Origin: a virus
Strand: one strand, 5' to 3'
DNA length: 50,388 bases
Virus record (IMG/VR): IMGVR_UViG_3300023178_004113
Location: 1-50,388 of that record
Shown: positions 15,848 to 47,193 of the stretch, in pieces
How positions within the stretch are numbered: position 1 is the first letter of the stretch
Layout of the letters: every line of letters begins with the position of its first letter
The notes under the pieces: model-generated
Told to the model about the DNA's origin: nothing
What the model saw: only the letters and a program-made list of their open reading frames with translations
Database searches by the model: none
Program-made: the position numbers and the translations under genes

Positions 15848-15934
15848 TGGTAGCCGTGGCCGGACTCGAACCGGCACACCTATAGAGGCGAGGGATTTTA
15901 AGTCCCTTGTGTCTACCTATTCCACCACACGGCC
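15848..15934 (-). tRNA. tRNA-Leu (anticodon TAA)
   Basis: 87 bases with a class II long variable arm. The acceptor is GGCCGTG/CACGGCT with G-U at the first pair, CCA is encoded, the T arm is GCCGG-TTCGAGT-CCGGC, and the anticodon loop is CTTAAAA. It reads TTA codons, which are very frequent in this phage. Confidence 0.93.
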
Positions 15935-16159
15935 ATTTCGTTGTACGATATAAGATCCTTCTGGACTATCTATTGCTAATATTAATTCTTCCCACATTTC
16001 TGGAGTTATACTTAACAAATCTTCAACATGACCGTCTTCATCTACTTGAGTGATATATACAGCATCTTCATAAGTACTTACTACTAAGTCTGGAACAGAA
16101 CCTGTATCATCTAAAATAGTAATAGTAATATCATCGTGTTCCATCTCTACTGTATACAT
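15917..16159 (-). CDS. Hypothetical acidic protein ending inside tRNA-Leu
   Basis: 80 aa from the ATG at 16159; a longer reading would start inside the neighbouring tRNA. It is acidic and beta-rich (MYTVEMEHDDITITILDDTG). The last codons and the TAG stop lie within the first 18 bases of tRNA-Leu, so the mRNA and tRNA must share sequence. No domain is recognised. Confidence 0.65.
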   Translation of the reverse strand: MYTVEMEHDDITITILDDTGSVPDLVVSTYEDAVYITQVDEDGHVEDLLSITPEMWEELILAIDSPEGSYIVQRNGRVVE

Positions 16160-16173
16160 AATAACTTTCTTTC

Positions 16174-16250
16174 TGGTAGGCCCAGAGGGACTCGAACCCC
16201 CAACCAAAGCGTTATGAGCGCTCTGCTCTAACCGATTGAGCTACAGGCCC
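16174..16250 (-). tRNA. tRNA with CAT anticodon, probably tRNA-Ile2
   Basis: 77 bases, CCA encoded, anticodon loop CTCATAA, T arm GGGGG-TTCGAGT-CCCTC. It could be elongator Met or Ile2 (lysidine-modified, reading ATA). C4-G69 and C5-G68 in the acceptor stem, which the bacterial modifying enzyme TilS uses to pick Ile2, are present. The phage uses many ATA codons. I therefore favour Ile2. Confidence 0.85.
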
Positions 16251-16380
16251 TCTTTACTTTTTATAATCAGCTGGAGAGCTTCTGCAGAACTCTCCAGCCT
16301 ATTTGCATCTCACGTGTGCAACAAACGACCTAATGTAGAGGGCCACATCTGCCTAGCACTAGGATTTTTTTGTGCCTATT
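16251..16380 (-). other. Gene-free spacer between tRNAs, with hairpins
   Basis: There is no open frame with a start. An 8-bp GC-rich stem (16271-16278 with 16290-16297) is topped by the palindrome TTCTGCAGAA. TTGCA/TGCAA and CCTAG/CTAGG stems are also visible. It may be processed as part of the tRNA transcript. Confidence 0.4.
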
Positions 16381-16457
16381 TGGTGATCACGGAAGGACTC
16401 GAACCCTCAACCTACTGATTAGAAGTCAGTTGCTCTATCCAGTTGAGCTACGTGACC
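16381..16457 (-). tRNA. tRNA-Arg (anticodon TCT)
   Basis: 77 bases. The acceptor is GGTCACG/CGTGATC, CCA is encoded, the anticodon stem is ACTGA/TCAGT and the loop CTTCTAA. It reads AGA, the dominant arginine codon of the phage genes here. Confidence 0.93.
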
Positions 16458-37270: not shown

Positions 37271-37741
37271 TTATTTTTCCCATCTGTATAAATGATGTAT
37301 GCCTATCGTTACTGTTTTTGATAGCTTATCTTTCCAAAAAGGGTTAACTGCTTTACTATGATAGTGCGTTGAATTTTTTGTCACGTCTGATATTTTTCCT
37401 GAGATTAACGCTTTAGCGAGCTTAAAAGATTTTTCTTTAGCTCGCTGATCTTTCATAGTATCGGGATACTTGTCACAGTACCAACTAAACTGGCACTTAT
37501 ATAAAATAATTTTATTATTTTTATCTTTACGAGCTTGAGTTACAACTTTACAAATAGTATTTGGATATCTAGAATCTTTTACTCTATTTAAAGTAACATT
37601 ACCAACTGCTATTTGTCCTTTTGTTGATTCTCCTCTAGCTTCGTGATATATATTTTTTGCTAAACATTCTACTTCTTTACTAGTATCTGCCATTACGCTA
37701 GTGCTGGCACATAGGAGAAAAATATGTAGTCCTTTTATCAT
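37271..37741 (-). CDS. Secreted SleB-like cell-wall hydrolase
   Basis: 156 aa with a signal peptide (GLHIFLLCASTSVMA). The SleB/CwlJ hydrolase 2 domain shows LAKNIYHEARGES (catalytic Glu), GQIAVGNVTLNRV, CQFSWYCD and THYHSKAVNPFW. It cleaves peptidoglycan and can reach the periplasm by itself, making it a second lysin besides the GH19 enzyme. The start overlaps fpg by 44 bases. Confidence 0.82.
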   Translation of the reverse strand: MIKGLHIFLLCASTSVMADTSKEVECLAKNIYHEARGESTKGQIAVGNVTLNRVKDSRYPNTICKVVTQARKDKNNKIILYKCQFSWYCDKYPDTMKDQRAKEKSFKLAKALISGKISDVTKNSTHYHSKAVNPFWKDKLSKTVTIGIHHLYRWEK

Positions 37742-38537
37742 CTAATATTACCTTAGTTATAGCATTCCCATTAGGATCTACTTTTTTGTTATAAACTAAG
37801 TGTTTAGAGCCGCTATAAGACCCTTCAACACCGTACAAATCTTTATACGTTCTAATTGTTGAGCCTCCTGTTTTATAAGACTCTGTTAAAATTTTAATTA
37901 TAGCTCCGTGTAGCCGTATCAGATCGTTGTCTGATAGGTCAGATACGCTATTATAGGGAGAAATGCCAGATAAATATAGAGATTCACTTTTGTATATGTT
38001 ACCTATACCACTAATGTATTTTTGATTCATTAAAAAACTTACAATACTTTTATGGTTATATTTTCTTGCTATTTCTACAAAATTTTTTACGCTACAAGGA
38101 TTATTTAACATATCTGGGCCTATAGAGTCCAATTTTTTATTTAAGATATTTCTATCGTTTACAAACTTTAGCGTTCCGAAGTTCCTAATATCTGAGTAGT
38201 ATAAGTCTAAATATTCTATAGTATTATAATAACTTTTAGTAAGGGAGAATAACACCCGAGAATGAGTATCTTTGCTTAGAGAGTATCTGCCGCTCATTCC
38301 GAGAGTACAAAATAAAAACCATTCATTTTCAAATTCCCACCAAATAAATTTCCCTTTATTATATACTCCCTTAATTAAAAGAGCGCTTCTTTCCAAAGCG
38401 CTCATGAAATCATGGTATCCATCTGGAACACGTTTTATGTATCGTCCAGACATAGGTATGGTATCTTCGAGAAAAGAGCCACTAACTATGCTATGCAGCT
38501 GTCTCGCGACTCTAGTTACTTCAGGTCCTTCAGGCAT
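37698..38537 (-). CDS. mutM: Formamidopyrimidine-DNA glycosylase without zinc cysteines
   Basis: 279 aa, normal Fpg length. MPEGPEV carries the catalytic Pro2/Glu3; LGMSGRYS and the helix-two-turn-helix QKYISGIGNIYKSE are present. In the C-terminal finger the usual PCxxC...CPxC has become DPNGN...SPMC: three of four zinc ligands are gone, as in zincless NEIL-type enzymes. It excises oxidised purines. Confidence 0.88.
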   Translation of the reverse strand: MPEGPEVTRVARQLHSIVSGSFLEDTIPMSGRYIKRVPDGYHDFMSALERSALLIKGVYNKGKFIWWEFENEWFLFCTLGMSGRYSLSKDTHSRVLFSLTKSYYNTIEYLDLYYSDIRNFGTLKFVNDRNILNKKLDSIGPDMLNNPCSVKNFVEIARKYNHKSIVSFLMNQKYISGIGNIYKSESLYLSGISPYNSVSDLSDNDLIRLHGAIIKILTESYKTGGSTIRTYKDLYGVEGSYSGSKHLVYNKKVDPNGNAITKVILDDKRTTYFSPMCQH

Positions 38538-39968: not shown

Positions 39969-40085
39969 ATGAATCCTAAAAATGGAGTAATTCCTCACGC
40001 TCTTTCAAAAGCATGGAAGAAAGCATTAAAACAACTGTCTAATAAGAAACAAAGACAAAAAGGAAAAAAAGAGGCTGCTACATAG
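39969..40085 (+). CDS. 38-aa basic peptide
   Basis: It starts 3 bases after the previous stop; sequence HALSKAWKKALKQL then a Lys-rich tail. The last 19 bases form the left arm and loop of the hairpin at 40067-40093. Weak evidence beyond frame and spacing. Confidence 0.45.
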   Translation: MNPKNGVIPHALSKAWKKALKQLSNKKQRQKGKKEAAT

Positions 40086-40093
40086 CCTCTTTT
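40067..40093 (+). terminator. Terminator-like hairpin before tmRNA
   Basis: Ten perfect pairs (40067-40076 with 40084-40093) around a 7-base loop, ending in TTTT. It may end the bS21 transcript or form the 5' flank of the pre-tmRNA. Confidence 0.55.
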
Positions 40094-40411
40094 GTAAACT
40101 GTGAAACAACGCATAATACATACTGGACTGCGGGGCAGTACCGCACAGCTCCACCAAAAACACACTTCGCCTATCTGCATAGTAGGTGTGGTGCAGCACA
40201 CAACTCCTAATCGAGCCAAGAAAGTGTGTTTTTGATGGGGCTGAAATAGGATCGACAGGTGTGTGAGTGAAGTGGAGTTTACCGTGTTGACCTACGTTAT
40301 TCGGTCAAACTTTATAATTGCAAACGATAACTTTGCACCATCTAATTACGCTCTTGCAGCATAATTAAGAGGGCTGGTCACTTGCCTAGTAACAGAAAAG
40401 TGACACATTAT
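40094..40411 (+). ncRNA. ssrA: Circularly permuted two-piece tmRNA
   Basis: The acceptor piece comes first: T arm TGCGG-GGCAGTA-CCGCA (40129-40145), acceptor strand CAGCTCC (40146-40152), A, then CCA (40154-40156). An ~80-base intervening loop closes with a perfect 12-bp stem (40156-40167 with 40222-40233). The coding piece starts GGGGCTG at 40237, pairing with CAGCTCC, then TAGGATCGACAGG. P2 (40259-40265 with 40117-40123), a PK1-like GTTGACC/GGTCAA, the tag frame and a 3' pseudoknot follow. End positions are approximate. tmRNA rescues stalled ribosomes. Confidence 0.9.
40320..40364 (+). other. tmRNA tag reading frame
   Basis: GCA resume codon then 13 more codons and TAA, giving ANDNFAPSNYALAA. 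The ANDNFA start and ALAA end match alphaproteobacterial proteolysis tags recognised by ClpXP. The tag therefore should still target products for degradation. Confidence 0.9.
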
Positions 40412-40424
40412 TTTGATTAACACT

Positions 40425-41021
40425 ATGAAAGTATATTCTGCCTCCAAAGCTATTACTGAATTTTCTATAGATTCTTCTAATATAATAGACGCCTCCACAA
40501 TATTTATTGTAAAAGATGAAAAATATGGAATTTCCCTAGGTAAAAACAACATTATACTTTCTGCTTGTGTTATTAACTGCGCAACTGGTTACCGAGAAAG
40601 TACTGTTATAGGTAACAATAATTATATAGGTCCTAGTACTACTATTAATAGTGATACTCTTATAGGCAATAATAATACTATAACAGGTTGTTGCTACTTA
40701 GGTTTTCATAGTGTTATTCAAAATAATGTTTATATAGAATATAATGCACATATTCAAAATTATTCAACAGTAGGAAGTTATTCTTTTATAGGTACGTTTT
40801 CTCCTATAATTAAAGATGTAAAACCTTTTTGTAAAGTGTTTGGCAATCCTTCTAAGATTAGAGGCACACACCGCTCTTCAGATTTTAGAAAAAGGTTTAA
40901 TGAAACGCAAAGACAAGAAATAGAAGCTTTTGTTAAAAACGATATAGAACCTACTGATCCTTATTTAATAAGTATAATTGATGAATATAGAAATTTTTCA
41001 AGAAAAAAAGTAACACAATGA
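40425..41021 (+). CDS. LpxA-like hexapeptide acyltransferase
   Basis: 198 aa. A left-handed beta-helix is shown by repeated I-G-N-N/I-x-x hexads (VIGNNNYIGPSTTI, LIGNNNTITG, SVIQNNVYI), then SFIGTFSPIIKDVKPF and KVFGNPSKIRG, as in LpxA/sugar N-acyltransferases. It would acylate a nucleotide sugar. The ATG follows the tmRNA by ~15 bases with no ribosome site; a TTG at 40413 is less likely. Confidence 0.75.
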   Translation: MKVYSASKAITEFSIDSSNIIDASTIFIVKDEKYGISLGKNNIILSACVINCATGYRESTVIGNNNYIGPSTTINSDTLIGNNNTITGCCYLGFHSVIQNNVYIEYNAHIQNYSTVGSYSFIGTFSPIIKDVKPFCKVFGNPSKIRGTHRSSDFRKRFNETQRQEIEAFVKNDIEPTDPYLISIIDEYRNFSRKKVTQ

Positions 41022-41791
41022 TAGTTATCTACCGAGCTTCAGAAGCAAATAAATCTCCAGGAAGTGTATCAGACGGATCAGAAGATAAAGCTAGATGGAA
41101 CGGAAAAAAGAAAGCAGAAATATTTAAAAAGTGCTGGCTTTCTTTACAACAAGACTTAGAAGGTTGGGACGATAAGATAATTGTTCTTGCAGACAAAGTA
41201 TCTGAAGAAACTAAAGCTTGGATGACAGATACTTGTATTATTCCTAGTAAATTAGAAATTAGAGATATTCCTGCTAGAACAGATGTTCCTCCACTAGGCT
41301 ATCATCCGTATCCTCAATATCATCCAGTTACTATTAACACTTGTATTCCGTTAATGGAAACATTAATAGAAATAGCTCAAGAAAATCCAGAAGAATTAAT
41401 TTATCTTTGTGAAGACGATTACCTTCATACTAAAACAGCTATAAAAACTATGAAAAATGTTTTTAAGGCTGGGTATGAAGGTTTTTATTTACCCTACGAT
41501 TACCCTGATAGGTATTTTGATAGAGATAAAAGTGTTGAAGTTCTTATAGGCCCTGACTGTCATTTAAAAACAGTGGCTAGTGCTACACTAACTTTAGCGG
41601 CTAAGGGTAAAACATTTTTACCTTTTAAGTTTTCTATTCTACAAGCAGGATTATTTTCAGATGATTCTTGGACATGGAAAGCGTTTAGACAGAGTGTAGC
41701 AGTATGTCCTTTGCCTGGAACAGCGACTCATTTACAAGATAATTGTATAACGCCCTTAATAGATTGGAGCGAAGTATGGAATCAGTGGTAA
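41018..41791 (+). CDS. Glycosyltransferase-like protein
   Basis: 257 aa. An EDDYLH motif near residue 130 (DxD-like), preceded by a hydrophobic strand (ELIYLC), with VASATLTLAAKG and LPGTATHLQDN later, fits viral/phage GT-A-like proteins. It overlaps the LpxA-like gene by 4 bases and the epimerase by 16 bases. Confidence 0.6.
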   Translation: MIVIYRASEANKSPGSVSDGSEDKARWNGKKKAEIFKKCWLSLQQDLEGWDDKIIVLADKVSEETKAWMTDTCIIPSKLEIRDIPARTDVPPLGYHPYPQYHPVTINTCIPLMETLIEIAQENPEELIYLCEDDYLHTKTAIKTMKNVFKAGYEGFYLPYDYPDRYFDRDKSVEVLIGPDCHLKTVASATLTLAAKGKTFLPFKFSILQAGLFSDDSWTWKAFRQSVAVCPLPGTATHLQDNCITPLIDWSEVWNQW

Positions 41792-42807
41792 TAACTGGGT
41801 CTGCCGGATTAATAGGTAGTCATCTATGCTATAAATATTTAGAGCTAGGGTATAGAGTAATTGGAGTAGATTCCTTAATAGGCGGATATATTACTAATAT
41901 GCCTAAGCACAAAAACTTTTTTTATTATGCAGTAGACATTTTAGATTGTACAGAGCTATCTTCTATTATGGGTATTTATAATCCTTCTTTAGTAATACAC
42001 TGTGCAGCCTTAGCGCATGAAGGATTAAGCGTATTTTCACCTAAAAAAATAGTTGAAAATATATATGCAGGCACTGCTTCTGTGTGCAGCGCTGCTATAA
42101 GTAGTAAAACTCCCATATTTATTAATACTACTTCAATGGCCAGATATGGAGAAGGCTCTCCTCCTTTTGAAGAAAATCACGTTCCTAATCCTGTAGATCC
42201 TTATGGCTTAGCCAAACTTCATGCAGAACAACACTTAAATTTGATGAGTGACATTCATGGAATAAAAGTATTTCATATGGTTCCTCATAATGTTTGCGGT
42301 CCGCATCAGTGTTATAGTGATCCTTTCAGAAATGTTATGAGTATTTTTGCTAATCTTATTTCAAAAGATAAACCAGTATTTATTTATGGTGATGGAACTC
42401 AAAAAAGATCTTTTTCTCATGTAAAAGATTGTGTAGACGCTTTTGTAACTATGTACAATAAAAGAGACAGTATTAATAGTAAAGAAGTATTTAATATTGG
42501 TCCTAGCCACGGAACTGAAACAACAATTCATGATTTAGCAGAAAAAGTAGCAAAATACTTTAACAAAAAAGTTAAAATAAATTTCGTTCCTGAAAGACCT
42601 AGAGAAGTAAAAAACGCATGGGTTTCTACTAACAAAGCAGAGTCTGTATTAGACTATAAAGCGGATACAGACATAGAAGAAACTATAAGAGACACTGTAA
42701 TGTGGATGAAGAATCAACCAACTAGAGACTTTGATTATCACATTGATTTAGAAATTGTAAATGATAAAACCCCTAAAACTTGGACAGACAGGCTATTTAA
42801 TAAATGA
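41776..42807 (+). CDS. NAD-dependent sugar epimerase/dehydratase (extended SDR)
   Basis: 343 aa from the ATG at 41776 (GGAG upstream). The NAD site is TGSAGLIGSH; catalytic Y-x3-K is in DPYGLAKLHAEQ; YGDGTQKRSFSHVKDCVDAF is typical of GalE/UDP-sugar epimerases. It makes or modifies a nucleotide sugar for the following glycosyltransferases. Confidence 0.87.
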   Translation: MESVVITGSAGLIGSHLCYKYLELGYRVIGVDSLIGGYITNMPKHKNFFYYAVDILDCTELSSIMGIYNPSLVIHCAALAHEGLSVFSPKKIVENIYAGTASVCSAAISSKTPIFINTTSMARYGEGSPPFEENHVPNPVDPYGLAKLHAEQHLNLMSDIHGIKVFHMVPHNVCGPHQCYSDPFRNVMSIFANLISKDKPVFIYGDGTQKRSFSHVKDCVDAFVTMYNKRDSINSKEVFNIGPSHGTETTIHDLAEKVAKYFNKKVKINFVPERPREVKNAWVSTNKAESVLDYKADTDIEETIRDTVMWMKNQPTRDFDYHIDLEIVNDKTPKTWTDRLFNK

Positions 42808-43814
42808 CAAACAAGTACGCACTATTTTTTAACAGCATGGCTTTTGGAGATACCTTATTTGGTATAAATTCAGCTAGAAGATTTAAAGAACATAACCCAG
42901 ATTGGAAAATTGCTTTTACTGTAAGAGGCAATTTTAATTTAACTACTAACGATGGTAGAACTGGCATGTTAGAAGCCTTAGAAGTTTATGCAAAACAGCC
43001 TTGGATAGACGCAGTAGGATATTTGCAGTGGGACCGAGAAGGTAATGTGACAGATATAGTGCTTAATGATGAAGAGTTAAGAAGAAAAAATCCTGACTTA
43101 TTTATTCCTCAAGAAAAATGGTGGACTGATTTTGGGAATAACAAAAGTAATAATTACCATATTAAAGATCATATTCCAGAAGAAGCATTAGAAGATGGAA
43201 ATTTAGAGCTATTTGTTGAGTCAAAAAAAATAAAAGATAATATACTAAGAATAGGTATGAGCGGCCCATTAGATTGGAACAGAAAATTACAAAATGAACA
43301 ATCTCGTGCAGACGTTATTTTAGGATTACAAAATATTCTAAGTGAAAGAAAGATTAAAGCTGAGATAAATATGTTTGGAGTAGAAATGCGTAATTATACT
43401 CTGTATCAGAGTTTATGTGTATTAAATACTCAAGACGTGTTTTTAGGGCCTATTGGATCTTTACATCATGCTTCTGCTGCCCTAGACGTAGATACTATCT
43501 CTATACCTTCGGTGTTTCCTGTGGTTTTGGATACTCCTGCTTTTTATTCTACTAAAGGAAATCACTTAAATGTAGAACATAGAAAAGAAAATCATTGTGG
43601 AGTGCCAGAGACAAAATGCGTAGGACAAAAACTCTATAAAAATAGAGATACCGACCCTAGAACGGGGCAAGAAGGGCCTTTTGCTTCTTTAGGCTTTTGG
43701 CCTAGAAAGTGTCCTCATACAGAATCAGGGTGGTCTTGCACAAAAACTGTTTTAGCACAAGACATAATAAATAGTTTTGAAACGTGGTTAGATAATTATT
43801 ATGACAAGTCTTAA
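42804..43814 (+). CDS. GT9/heptosyltransferase-like protein
   Basis: 336 aa. An initial ALFFNSMAFGDTLFG and a late FLGPIGSLHHASAALDV correspond to the N-terminal loop and GGP/H..AA region of heptosyltransferase-like GT-B enzymes. A Cys/His-rich end (HCGVPETKC, CPHTESGWSC) is an unusual addition that may bind metal. Confidence 0.62.
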   Translation: MTNKYALFFNSMAFGDTLFGINSARRFKEHNPDWKIAFTVRGNFNLTTNDGRTGMLEALEVYAKQPWIDAVGYLQWDREGNVTDIVLNDEELRRKNPDLFIPQEKWWTDFGNNKSNNYHIKDHIPEEALEDGNLELFVESKKIKDNILRIGMSGPLDWNRKLQNEQSRADVILGLQNILSERKIKAEINMFGVEMRNYTLYQSLCVLNTQDVFLGPIGSLHHASAALDVDTISIPSVFPVVLDTPAFYSTKGNHLNVEHRKENHCGVPETKCVGQKLYKNRDTDPRTGQEGPFASLGFWPRKCPHTESGWSCTKTVLAQDIINSFETWLDNYYDKS

Positions 43815-45252
43815 TCCTATTATCATAGTTCCTTATTTATTTGAACAAGAAATTCAAGAGTTAAAAAAGTCATTAGGCTGGCAGCTCGAATATGAATTTT
43901 GGCAAGATTTAGGGCATATAGGTAGCGATATGGCCTACCAGTATCTATGGAATAAACATAAAGATAGAGATGTGATAATTCTTCACGCAGATATGTTACC
44001 CTTACCAGAAGATACTCAAAATAAATGGTATACAGATCTGATCGATACTGTAAATAAATATCCAGAAGCTGATATATTTGGTATGAAACTTTTATACCCT
44101 CAAAAAACAGAAAATGATAAGTATATCATACAGCACGCTGGTGGGAGATTTAGTAAAAATGGTGAAGCAGTACATTTCGGAGGAGGACTTAACCTCTTTG
44201 ATGGAAAAGCAAATCAAGAATTGGAAATCGATGAGGGCCAGTACGACAGCGTACGAGAGGTTGCCTGGGTTACGATGGGCGGAGTTTACCTCAAAGCTTC
44301 TGTGCGCCATTCCGTTGGTAATTTTGATCCTGCTTTTTATTGGACTTACTATCGTGACGTGGATTGGTGTCTTTCTGCCCGTCGCGCTGGTCATAAAATT
44401 TATCAAACAGGCATACCGCTCCTTCATTTTGAAGGGAAAGATAACAAAAGATTAATAGCTCAAAATCCCAATTTACAAGAAAAATGGTCTATAAATAGAG
44501 AAATATTTATGGAAAAATGGTCAGGCAAAAAAGAATTTAAAACCTTAGATATGCTTGTAGAGCCTAAAAATATGAAAGAGAAACCCGTGAAAGAAATTAT
44601 AAAAGAGTCTAGCCCTCCACCAGAGTTTACTATAGAAACTATTAAAGGTCTTTATGAATATGCGTGTGCAAAAGAATCTGATATAAATGAGCATTTACCT
44701 ATTTTACAAGAATATGCTAATAAATGTGAGCATGTTACTGAGCTAGGAGCAAGAGGGGGTAATAGTACAATAACTTTTTTAGCCTCTGAAGCTAAAAAAT
44801 TTGTATCTTACGATTATCAGTATGAAACACCAGAGCCCCATTTAGAAGAAGATGTAAATACTTTAAAATTTATAATTAATTCTGCTAATAAAATAGGTAT
44901 TAATGCTTCTTATGTAGGAGCTAATGTTTTAGACGTAGAAATAGAACAAACAGATTTACTTTTTATAGATACTTGGCATGTATATTCTCAATTAAAAGAA
45001 GAATTAAGACTCCATGCAGGAAAAGTTAATAAGTATATAGCTTTTCACGATATTCACACTTTTGGAGAAGTAGGAGAAGGATACCCCGATAAAGACCCGT
45101 ATCACCCTACTAGAAATCAATTTACTAGTGGAGAAGGTATTCGCCCTGCCATAGATGAATTCTTAGAAGAAAATCCTGACTGGTCTATAATATACGAAAC
45201 AAAAGCTAATAACGGATTGATGATAATAGAGAAAAATAAGGCTGATACATGA
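43801..45252 (+). CDS. GT2-like glycosyltransferase fused to a methyltransferase-like domain
   Basis: 483 aa. N-terminal ~240 residues: GT-A features (VIILHADMLPLP, GGVYLKASVRHSVGNFDPAFYWTYYRDVDWCLSARRAGHKI as the GT2/GT7-like acceptor loop; ~20 residues quoted as separate parts). C-terminal: VTELGARGGNST (SAM motif I), SYDYQY, and LLFIDTWHVYSQLK as in Methyltransf_24. Codons change to CGN-rich between ~44190 and 44440. Confidence 0.75.
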   Translation: MTSLNPIIIVPYLFEQEIQELKKSLGWQLEYEFWQDLGHIGSDMAYQYLWNKHKDRDVIILHADMLPLPEDTQNKWYTDLIDTVNKYPEADIFGMKLLYPQKTENDKYIIQHAGGRFSKNGEAVHFGGGLNLFDGKANQELEIDEGQYDSVREVAWVTMGGVYLKASVRHSVGNFDPAFYWTYYRDVDWCLSARRAGHKIYQTGIPLLHFEGKDNKRLIAQNPNLQEKWSINREIFMEKWSGKKEFKTLDMLVEPKNMKEKPVKEIIKESSPPPEFTIETIKGLYEYACAKESDINEHLPILQEYANKCEHVTELGARGGNSTITFLASEAKKFVSYDYQYETPEPHLEEDVNTLKFIINSANKIGINASYVGANVLDVEIEQTDLLFIDTWHVYSQLKEELRLHAGKVNKYIAFHDIHTFGEVGEGYPDKDPYHPTRNQFTSGEGIRPAIDEFLEENPDWSIIYETKANNGLMIIEKNKADT

Positions 45253-46070
45253 GAAAAAAAAGCGTAATAAGTTTAATTTCATATGATGCATCATATTTAC
45301 CAGAATCTATTAGTACCTACTACGATTATGTAGATGAAATTATTCTCGGATTAGATAAAGACAGAATATCTTGGAGTAGAAATAAATTTTCTTTTGATGA
45401 AGAGGCTCTTTGGAAAGAATTAAGTAAAATAGACGGAGACAATAAAATTGAAGTTGTTGAAGGAAATTTTCATAGAAGCGCTGTTCCGATTGAAAACGAT
45501 AATCACGAAAGAAATTTTTTAAAAGAGCATTGCTCTAATGACTGGATATTTAGCTTTGATGCGGACGAAATGCTTGTAAATGCAGATGACTTTTTTAATA
45601 AGTTTTGTCCTATCGTAGAAAATTATGATGTTGATTTAATGTTCTACTGGATCTTACCTTATAAAAGAGTAGGAGACAATGAAATATTAGTTATATCAAA
45701 AGAAGATAGAAAAACACTTCCTAACAATGAAGTACAAGGATTTACTACTTTTAAACATAATACATTTAATTATTGTAGATGGACTAATAATCAAAAAAGA
45801 GTTCAATCCCCCTTAGCAATACTTCATTGGAGTTTCTGTAGACCAGAAACTGAGTTAGATTTAAAAATCAATAATTTTGGTCATAGCATAGAAAGTAAAC
45901 AAGATCCTTTTTATGATATTCAAGCTAAAGTAGATATAAACAACTATACACAGTTAAAAAACTTTAAAACTAGTAATATGGGACCTCAGTGGGAATCCTT
46001 GCTAAAAATTCCAGAAAAAGAATTATTAAATTATTGTAAAGAACAAGCGGTGCTTATGTATGAAAAATAG
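45249..46070 (+). CDS. GT2-family glycosyltransferase-like protein
   Basis: 273 aa. FSFDADEMLVNADDFF carries a DxD metal motif; the start SVISLISYDASYLPESI and HERNFLKEHCSNDWIF are typical of GT2 proteins with a short N-domain. The sugar is unknown. Overlaps of 4 and 11 bases with the neighbours place it in the glycan operon. Confidence 0.72.
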   Translation: MRKKSVISLISYDASYLPESISTYYDYVDEIILGLDKDRISWSRNKFSFDEEALWKELSKIDGDNKIEVVEGNFHRSAVPIENDNHERNFLKEHCSNDWIFSFDADEMLVNADDFFNKFCPIVENYDVDLMFYWILPYKRVGDNEILVISKEDRKTLPNNEVQGFTTFKHNTFNYCRWTNNQKRVQSPLAILHWSFCRPETELDLKINNFGHSIESKQDPFYDIQAKVDINNYTQLKNFKTSNMGPQWESLLKIPEKELLNYCKEQAVLMYEK

Positions 46071-47193
46071 TATGAACATAGAAATTATAGGAAAATTTTA
46101 CGATAACCATTCTCTTTCTATAGTAAATAGATATTTAGCGCTAGAGCTTTCTAAGTATGGTAAAATATTTATATCTCCAATAGATAGTTTTAATGCAGAG
46201 GCTAAAGTAGATAAAAAAATTCTAGAGGCGTTAGAAAAACTACGCCCCACTAAAGAAGATACAGCTGTTCCAAATATTCAAATTAGACATACTTATCCTC
46301 CTATTTGGAGGTGGCCACACTCTAACGACACTAAAGTAGTATATATTCAGCCTTGGGAGTTTACAAAAGTACCTTTTGAATGGCAATATAAGTTTGAAAC
46401 TTTTGCAGACGCACTAATAACTTTTACACGATGGACAGGCGCAGTATATCAAGAAGGAGGCATAAACCCTGAAAGGCTTTTTTGTATTCCTATTGGTTAT
46501 GACCCCGATACCTTTTATGTAGATAGAGAAACTCCTAAAAGAGATAATTATACTTTTCTCTTTGTAGGATGTGATCAATATAGAAAAGGATTTGACATTT
46601 TATTAAAAGCATGGGCTAACGCTTTTAAAAAAGAAGATAAAGTAGAATTAATAGTAAAAGATACCCCTCAAGTATACGGTAAAACTACTTTGCAAGAACA
46701 ACTAATTAAATTACAATATACAAATAATCTTGCAAAAATTACTTATATAGACGATGCTTATTCTGAAAAACAAATGGCAGATTTATATAGAAATGTTGAT
46801 GTACTAGTTCATCCTTATAGAGGTGAAGGATTTGGAATGCCCGTACAAGAAGCAATTGCTTGTGGTACTATTCCTTTAGTTACTGGAGGAGGCTGTACTG
46901 ATGAATTTGTTACAGACTATAAAATACAGTCTTCTCAAAAACTTGTTGATATAAATACCATTTTTGCAGGAAAACCAGGAGATAGTTTTAATTTAATGGG
47001 ATCTCATACCTGGTTAATCGAGCCTGATGTTACTGATTTAATTCAAAAATTAAAGATGCTATATGATACAAAGAAAAGAGCTATTCCTAAGAGTAGTCGA
47101 ATAAAAAATTGGGAAGAAGTAGGCGCTATGTATAATACTGCACTTAAACAAATACATGAGTATCCCAAAATAAAGAGAGTTCATGGAAATTGA
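46060..47193 (+). CDS. GT4-family glycosyltransferase
   Basis: 377 aa, GT-B fold. VGCDQYRKGFDILLKAW and VLVHPYRGEGFGMPVQEAIAC (E-x7-E motif) are hallmarks of GT4. It uses a nucleotide sugar, perhaps GDP-mannose made through the PMM-like enzyme (inference). An internal ATG five codons in (MNIEII) may be the true start. Confidence 0.85.
   Translation: MKNSMNIEIIGKFYDNHSLSIVNRYLALELSKYGKIFISPIDSFNAEAKVDKKILEALEKLRPTKEDTAVPNIQIRHTYPPIWRWPHSNDTKVVYIQPWEFTKVPFEWQYKFETFADALITFTRWTGAVYQEGGINPERLFCIPIGYDPDTFYVDRETPKRDNYTFLFVGCDQYRKGFDILLKAWANAFKKEDKVELIVKDTPQVYGKTTLQEQLIKLQYTNNLAKITYIDDAYSEKQMADLYRNVDVLVHPYRGEGFGMPVQEAIACGTIPLVTGGGCTDEFVTDYKIQSSQKLVDINTIFAGKPGDSFNLMGSHTWLIEPDVTDLIQKLKMLYDTKKRAIPKSSRIKNWEEVGAMYNTALKQIHEYPKIKRVHGN

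Follow-up and report, generated by a model that had tools for sequence, protein, structure and literature searches.

The window analysed here, meaning the whole stretch of 50,388 nucleotides, is a 50-kb virus fragment from IMG/VR that carries phage families of the PhoH, exonuclease, NAD-dependent ligase, endolysin and helicase types. A circularly permuted, alpha-type tmRNA gene lies at positions 40094–40411. This gene had been proposed in an earlier, sequence-only reading, which named a covariance-model search as the way to check it. ARAGORN predicts a permuted tmRNA at 40063–40455 with the tag ANDNFAPSNYALAA, and two Rfam models match above their curated cut-offs: RF04321 (tmRNA_permuted) at 40094–40364 with 124.6 bits against a cut-off of 47, and RF01849 (alpha_tmRNA) at 40031–40407 with 115.9 bits against a cut-off of 50. 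The anatomy read directly from the letters agrees with these predictions, and the permuted tmRNA is not a chance match. The features of the locus are as follows.

40067..40093, + strand: hairpin of 10–11 bp just upstream of the acceptor piece; aligned by the alpha_tmRNA model to its 5' hairpin
40094..40156, + strand: acceptor piece of the permuted tmRNA (sequence, ARAGORN, Rfam; the alpha_tmRNA model starts at 40031)
40129-40145, + strand: T-arm TGCGG-GGCAGTA-CCGCA (read from sequence)
40146-40152, + strand: 3' acceptor strand CAGCTCC (read from sequence)
40153, + strand: discriminator A (read from sequence)
40154-40156, + strand: CCA (read from sequence)
40156..40167, + strand: 5' arm of the closing stem, 12 bp, pairing with 40222-40233 (sequence, fold)
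40157..40236, + strand: intervening segment (IVS) of 80 nt, presumed to be removed on maturation; the putative cargo slot
40168..40221, + strand: body of element W, a hairpin CGCCTAT..GTAGGTG followed by a hairpin CTC-CTAATC-GAG (sequence comparison, fold)
40222..40233, + strand: 3' arm of the closing stem (sequence, fold)
40237..40411, + strand: tmRNA coding piece, starting with the 5' acceptor strand GGGGCTG (ARAGORN, Rfam; 3' end approximate)
40237-40243, + strand: 5' acceptor strand GGGGCTG (read from sequence)
40320..40364, + strand: tag frame ANDNFAPSNYALAA*, GCA...TAA (ARAGORN)
41018..41791, + strand: conserved phage gene of 257 aa, function unassigned; used as the query for fetching relatives, with a tmRNA upstream of the homologue in most

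The order of the parts is the one claimed earlier, as the acceptor strand, discriminator and CCA (40146–40156) precede GGGGCTG (40237–40243). The two acceptor strands form 7/7 pairs, and pair 3 is G3-U70, the alanine identity element. The perfect 12-bp stem and the gene's own tag, both part of the same reading, were likewise recovered, the former in sequence and fold and the latter as a frame with the ANDN...ALAA pattern and a stop. The IVS is defined as the segment between the two tmRNA pieces, which maturation should remove; together with the flanking acceptor strands it folds at −41 kcal/mol (z −5.1), a value equalled by 0 of 200 shuffles. The hairpin upstream of the acceptor piece doubles as a terminator-pattern match on the − strand, and a promoter scan around the tmRNA gene stayed at about shuffle level.

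The tmRNA belongs to the phage, as its neighbours are phage genes and related phages have kept it. Relatives were collected as 29 virus contigs encoding a homologue of the 257-aa neighbour protein, and in most of them ARAGORN or Rfam finds a permuted tmRNA upstream of this gene; among the remaining contigs there are two or three in which the fragment stops or diverges before that place. This conserved position beside a common neighbour upholds the claim that the tmRNA is phage-encoded. No SmpB gene was found in the 50-kb fragment, so that host SmpB is probably used. As the sequence-only reading supposed, the tmRNA may replace or boost the ssrA of the host, or help to clear stalled ribosomes during takeover. 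Elsewhere the window encodes three phage tRNAs, for Leu, Met and Arg, as well as a DNA glycosylase of the Fpg-like type, and the tmRNA is followed by a series of genes for sugar modification, among them a hexapeptide transferase, an epimerase and glycosyltransferases (15848–16457, 37698–38537, 40413–47193).

Phage-encoded permuted tmRNAs are known as a kind. Two-piece tmRNAs have been published in Methylophilales phage Melnitz and in marine phages of its cluster, and 53 of them, 50 from marine or aquatic phages, were counted when phage genomes were surveyed (PMC9004378). Similar to the window, Melnitz is a T4-like marine myovirus in which no integrase was found and which encodes a circularly permuted tmRNA of the alpha type with a tag of its own. 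The DNA similarity is nevertheless low (70% over 43% of the query), and the glutamine riboswitch reported in Melnitz (PMC9004378) has no counterpart in the window at Rfam cut-offs. The window also shares gene order, tRNA-like domain, tag and closing stem with the alphaproteobacterial permuted tmRNAs (RF01849/RF04321). The sequence-only reading had missed that the kind is already published and that the unusual part is the IVS and not the tmRNA. In Melnitz it holds an unannotated 54-aa frame, whereas in the window it holds element W; furthermore, the alphaproteobacterial IVS is usually short and without a filling ORF, whereas phages often have a longer IVS that can be exchanged and carries cargo.

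The bacterial control comprised 76 alphaproteobacterial permuted tmRNAs, phage-looking bin contigs having been excluded. Their IVSs are 2–57 nt long with a single exception of 165 nt, and an IVS-filling ORF occurs in 0 of the 76, although short chance frames do occur. A second long bacterial IVS escaped the extractor and was inspected by eye; it is rich in repeats. The two alphaproteobacterial genomes with long repeat-rich IVSs are L239, which the extractor missed, and L240, in whose IVS it found no ORF. In contrast, phage IVSs reach about 500 nt, and among relatives their length and content vary even between nearly identical tmRNAs. The ORF test covered phage IVSs of 90 nt or more, 63 after removal of redundancy, an IVS being counted as filled when an ATG frame covers at least 60% of it. 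An ORF fills 41 of these 63, compared with 7.1 expected from dinucleotide shuffles and 8 on the antisense strand, and a Shine-Dalgarno-like site accompanies 32 of the 41; the first scan alone had found a filling ORF in 36 of 104 unique phage IVSs. Many of the ORFs begin shortly past the closing stem, with the Shine-Dalgarno site and ATG directly behind it, and finish within or close to the fixed motif TTTTTGATGGGGCTGAAATAG. About one-third of the long phage IVSs are without an ORF, which structured elements account for only partly, and no ATG frame is present in the 80-nt IVS of the window itself.

Five contigs in bacterial bins (L157, L163, L164, L165, L168) resemble phage DNA with tmRNAs, which is a caution for surveys of tmRNAs in metagenome bins; L164 and L168 also have ORF-filled IVSs. 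Nested tRNAs were rejected as a general kind of IVS content, with 3 canonical T-arm motifs against 1.7 expected from shuffles and no tRNA called there by Rfam. A tRNA-like T-arm adjoins the closing stem in the IVSs of L041, L075 and L165, weakly above chance, and these motifs are possibly decayed tRNA genes.

The coding status of the IVS ORFs was probed in four families, represented by 7, 27, 40 and 17 distinct sequences, using only codons that lie inside the IVS. The dN/dS values are 0.14, 0.10, 0.13 and 0.09, compared with 0.5–4.5 in shifted frames; consequently, the substitution pattern marks the IVS ORFs as real genes and indicates that these four families are under strong purifying selection. 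When the families were followed in the virus collection, a strict test placed 12/12, 47/72, 66/80 and 34/52 relatives within a tmRNA IVS. Several of the relatives outside this test are in tmRNAs that it missed, and others stand free between ordinary phage genes. Such free-standing homologues of the mini-ORFs occur in L301, L310, L316, L317, L323, L330, L335, L341, L415, L444 and L472, and the L310 copy ends in ATGGGGGCT, which resembles the start of a tmRNA coding piece. Two further layouts were observed. In L396 (1420–1840) a mini-ORF of family A3 lies just upstream of a tmRNA whose own IVS is short. In L470 (1000–2140) an acceptor-piece remnant and a mini-ORF, without a coding piece, lie several hundred nucleotides upstream of a complete permuted tmRNA, for which the beta type is the best older model; the layout looks as if the gene had been duplicated.

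Ten IVS ORFs were compared with protein families. The ORF of L092, which has a close copy in L009, matches Pfam DUF6356 (5e-12); Pfam gave no other match above cut-off and no homing endonuclease family for the ten, and 0/10 matched PHROGs. The three ORF families searched against cultured phage genomes found no match there. Among 34 first-scan ORFs, 16 contain a segment whose hydrophobicity would suffice for a membrane helix. The cargo-bearing loci are nearly all metagenomic contigs, and the sole cultured example with an ORF is Melnitz, which is without diverged relatives for a selection test. Its 54-aa frame has a Shine-Dalgarno-like site and is equalled in 0 of 200 shuffles.

The content of the IVS is also exchanged as a whole. 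L125 and L128 are 98–99% identical over 3 kb on each side of IVSs of 94 and 30 nt, respectively. The mature tmRNA regions of L041 and L061 are identical, while the IVS is 93 nt without an ORF in the former and 132 nt with an ORF in the latter; in L137 and L142 the mature regions are 99% identical and the IVS ORFs are unrelated. These alignments indicate that phages almost identical on both sides of the IVS swap its whole content. At a simple guess, the cargo could move by recombination in the conserved flanking sequences. A further candidate set of swaps (L037, L048, L053) was dropped, as L037 and L048 align throughout at 90%.

The window's IVS is loaded with an RNA rather than an ORF. Comparison of copies indicates that the 80-nt segment holds a conserved structured RNA, element W, that is absent from Rfam, where it has no above-chance match except to tmRNA. 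Of the 36 distinct copies found, 25, counting that of the window, lie in phage tmRNA IVSs, and 11 are free-standing. The closing stem occurs in 16 sequence versions, with 8/8 pairs in 15 of these, and the hairpins vary with compensation between copies, the second one in the versions TTA/TAA, TAT/ATA and TTG/CAA. The loop CTGCA of the first hairpin is complementary to a downstream TGCAG, which suggests a possible pseudoknot; CTGCA and TGCAG are invariant among the copies, both sides being fixed by the search pattern. The free-standing copies follow a terminator-like GGGGCTTTTTTT (L476, L479, L480, L486, L490, L491, L504, L522, L534, L546 and L550). In L479, the copy that was scanned, tRNA genes lie directly behind the element, and the sequence after the other copies looks similar. 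By description, the free-standing element resembles RNA C and RNA D of phage T4, small stable RNAs of unassigned function next to phage tRNA genes, which in T4 do not lie in a tmRNA.

The reading that very probably fits the locus is that of a T4-like marine phage with an alpha-type permuted tmRNA in which the IVS, in phages, serves as a cargo slot for small genes and structured RNAs. ORF families under selection, whole-content swaps and element W together lead to this interpretation. Host tRNA-processing enzymes would cut the transcript into an acceptor piece and a coding piece, and the two pieces would act with host SmpB as in trans-translation, as expected from family membership. Since the IVS is discarded, the tmRNA should tolerate its replacement, and in phages the segment has become a slot; it holds a small protein gene in about one-third of the sampled phage permuted tmRNAs and a structured RNA in others. 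Cargo ORFs would be translated from the tmRNA precursor, while element W or other cargo RNA would be set free by tmRNA processing. A stronger version, namely a dedicated slot in which cassettes are exchanged, processing releases the RNA cargo, translation of the protein cargo is coupled to maturation and cleavage turns some messages into substrates of their own tmRNA, is doubtful at present.

The phage could instead have picked up an ordinary host-derived ssrA in which the spacer has no consequence and the length of the IVS reflects neutral filler. Bacterial permuted tmRNAs have an IVS too, a few of them long and repeat-rich, and for the Melnitz tmRNA the published interpretation was acquisition from an alphaproteobacterium (PMC9004378). 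Filler would, however, not be expected to show the strong purifying selection and the ORF counts far above shuffles described above, nor homologous ORF families that recur in many tmRNAs and in free-standing form, nor an element W that recurs with compensatory stem changes. This explanation is therefore improbable overall, and for the ORF-bearing class of IVSs it is already disfavoured. Far less credible still is a duplicated attachment site of the prophage type, in which the phage carries ssrA as its own integration site. While ssrA is a common integration site (PMC9004378, PMC11915505), the gene in the window is whole, with both ends, and is surrounded by phage genes in a synteny conserved in related virus contigs; no integrase was found in the 50-kb window, which makes a relic of an attachment site unlikely.

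A different proposal adds to the cargo slot rather than opposing it. Here the cargo ORF would be translated only from the unprocessed precursor, and the cleavage that makes the 5' end of the coding piece would strip the stop codon from the +10 class of ORFs, whose product would become a non-stop substrate of the interrupted tmRNA in a self-limiting switch (compare arfA). Consistent with this, 11 of 34 ORFs stop at a TAG that lies within the coding piece, at +10, and 13 at a TGA 4 nt before the cleavage site, and the Shine-Dalgarno site and ATG just past the closing stem in many IVSs point the same way. Against it, IVS ORFs use all three frames of TTTTTGATGGGGCTGAAATAG, and in family A2 several copies have lost the +10 stop, so that the ORF extends to +34 or +52. 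Because the +10 stop is not kept in this family, its position looks opportunistic and a designed non-stop ORF is given little weight; such coupling is tentative and rather unlikely.

The cargo slot has partial parallels in other tmRNA genes, described in the 2025 tmRNA database paper (PMC11915505). One case is recorded there of a permuted tmRNA, in GCA-2688965, with a tRNA-Ala gene in the intervening sequence, and another permuted tmRNA has a repetitive element in this position. GCA-2688965 resembles the phage loci in having a second gene within the IVS; its cargo is a tRNA in one case, whereas the phage cargo consists of protein genes and an undescribed RNA in many phages. The same paper describes group I introns in tmRNA genes, some with homing endonucleases. 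These also nest a protein gene in a removable part, but in the phage loci this part is the permutation spacer rather than a group I intron, and 0/10 ORFs matched homing endonuclease families. No mention of protein genes in the tmRNA intervening sequence was found in the searched passages of that paper, and a limited search of other full-text literature in open-licence papers found no report of them in a tmRNA IVS.

What the slot contributes is an arrangement without a report in the literature searched, in which protein-coding genes under selection are nested in a ribosome-rescue RNA gene, within its removable spacer. It helps to explain the wide length variation of phage permuted tmRNA genes. 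The slot also reveals tiny phage protein families with no PHROG match, three tested ones being without a cultured-phage match, and a structured RNA of unassigned role, element W, that occurs near phage tRNA genes as well. As Melnitz is in culture and has a candidate ORF in its IVS, the idea can be tested directly.

Two minor observations concern other tmRNAs of the set. For L089 and L105 the tag that ARAGORN predicts, ANDNALSNVTFVDFSAPVTAVNEDFALAA, is unusually long at 29 aa, and in L097 a manA RNA (RF01745, 5624–5830) lies directly downstream of the phage permuted tmRNA.
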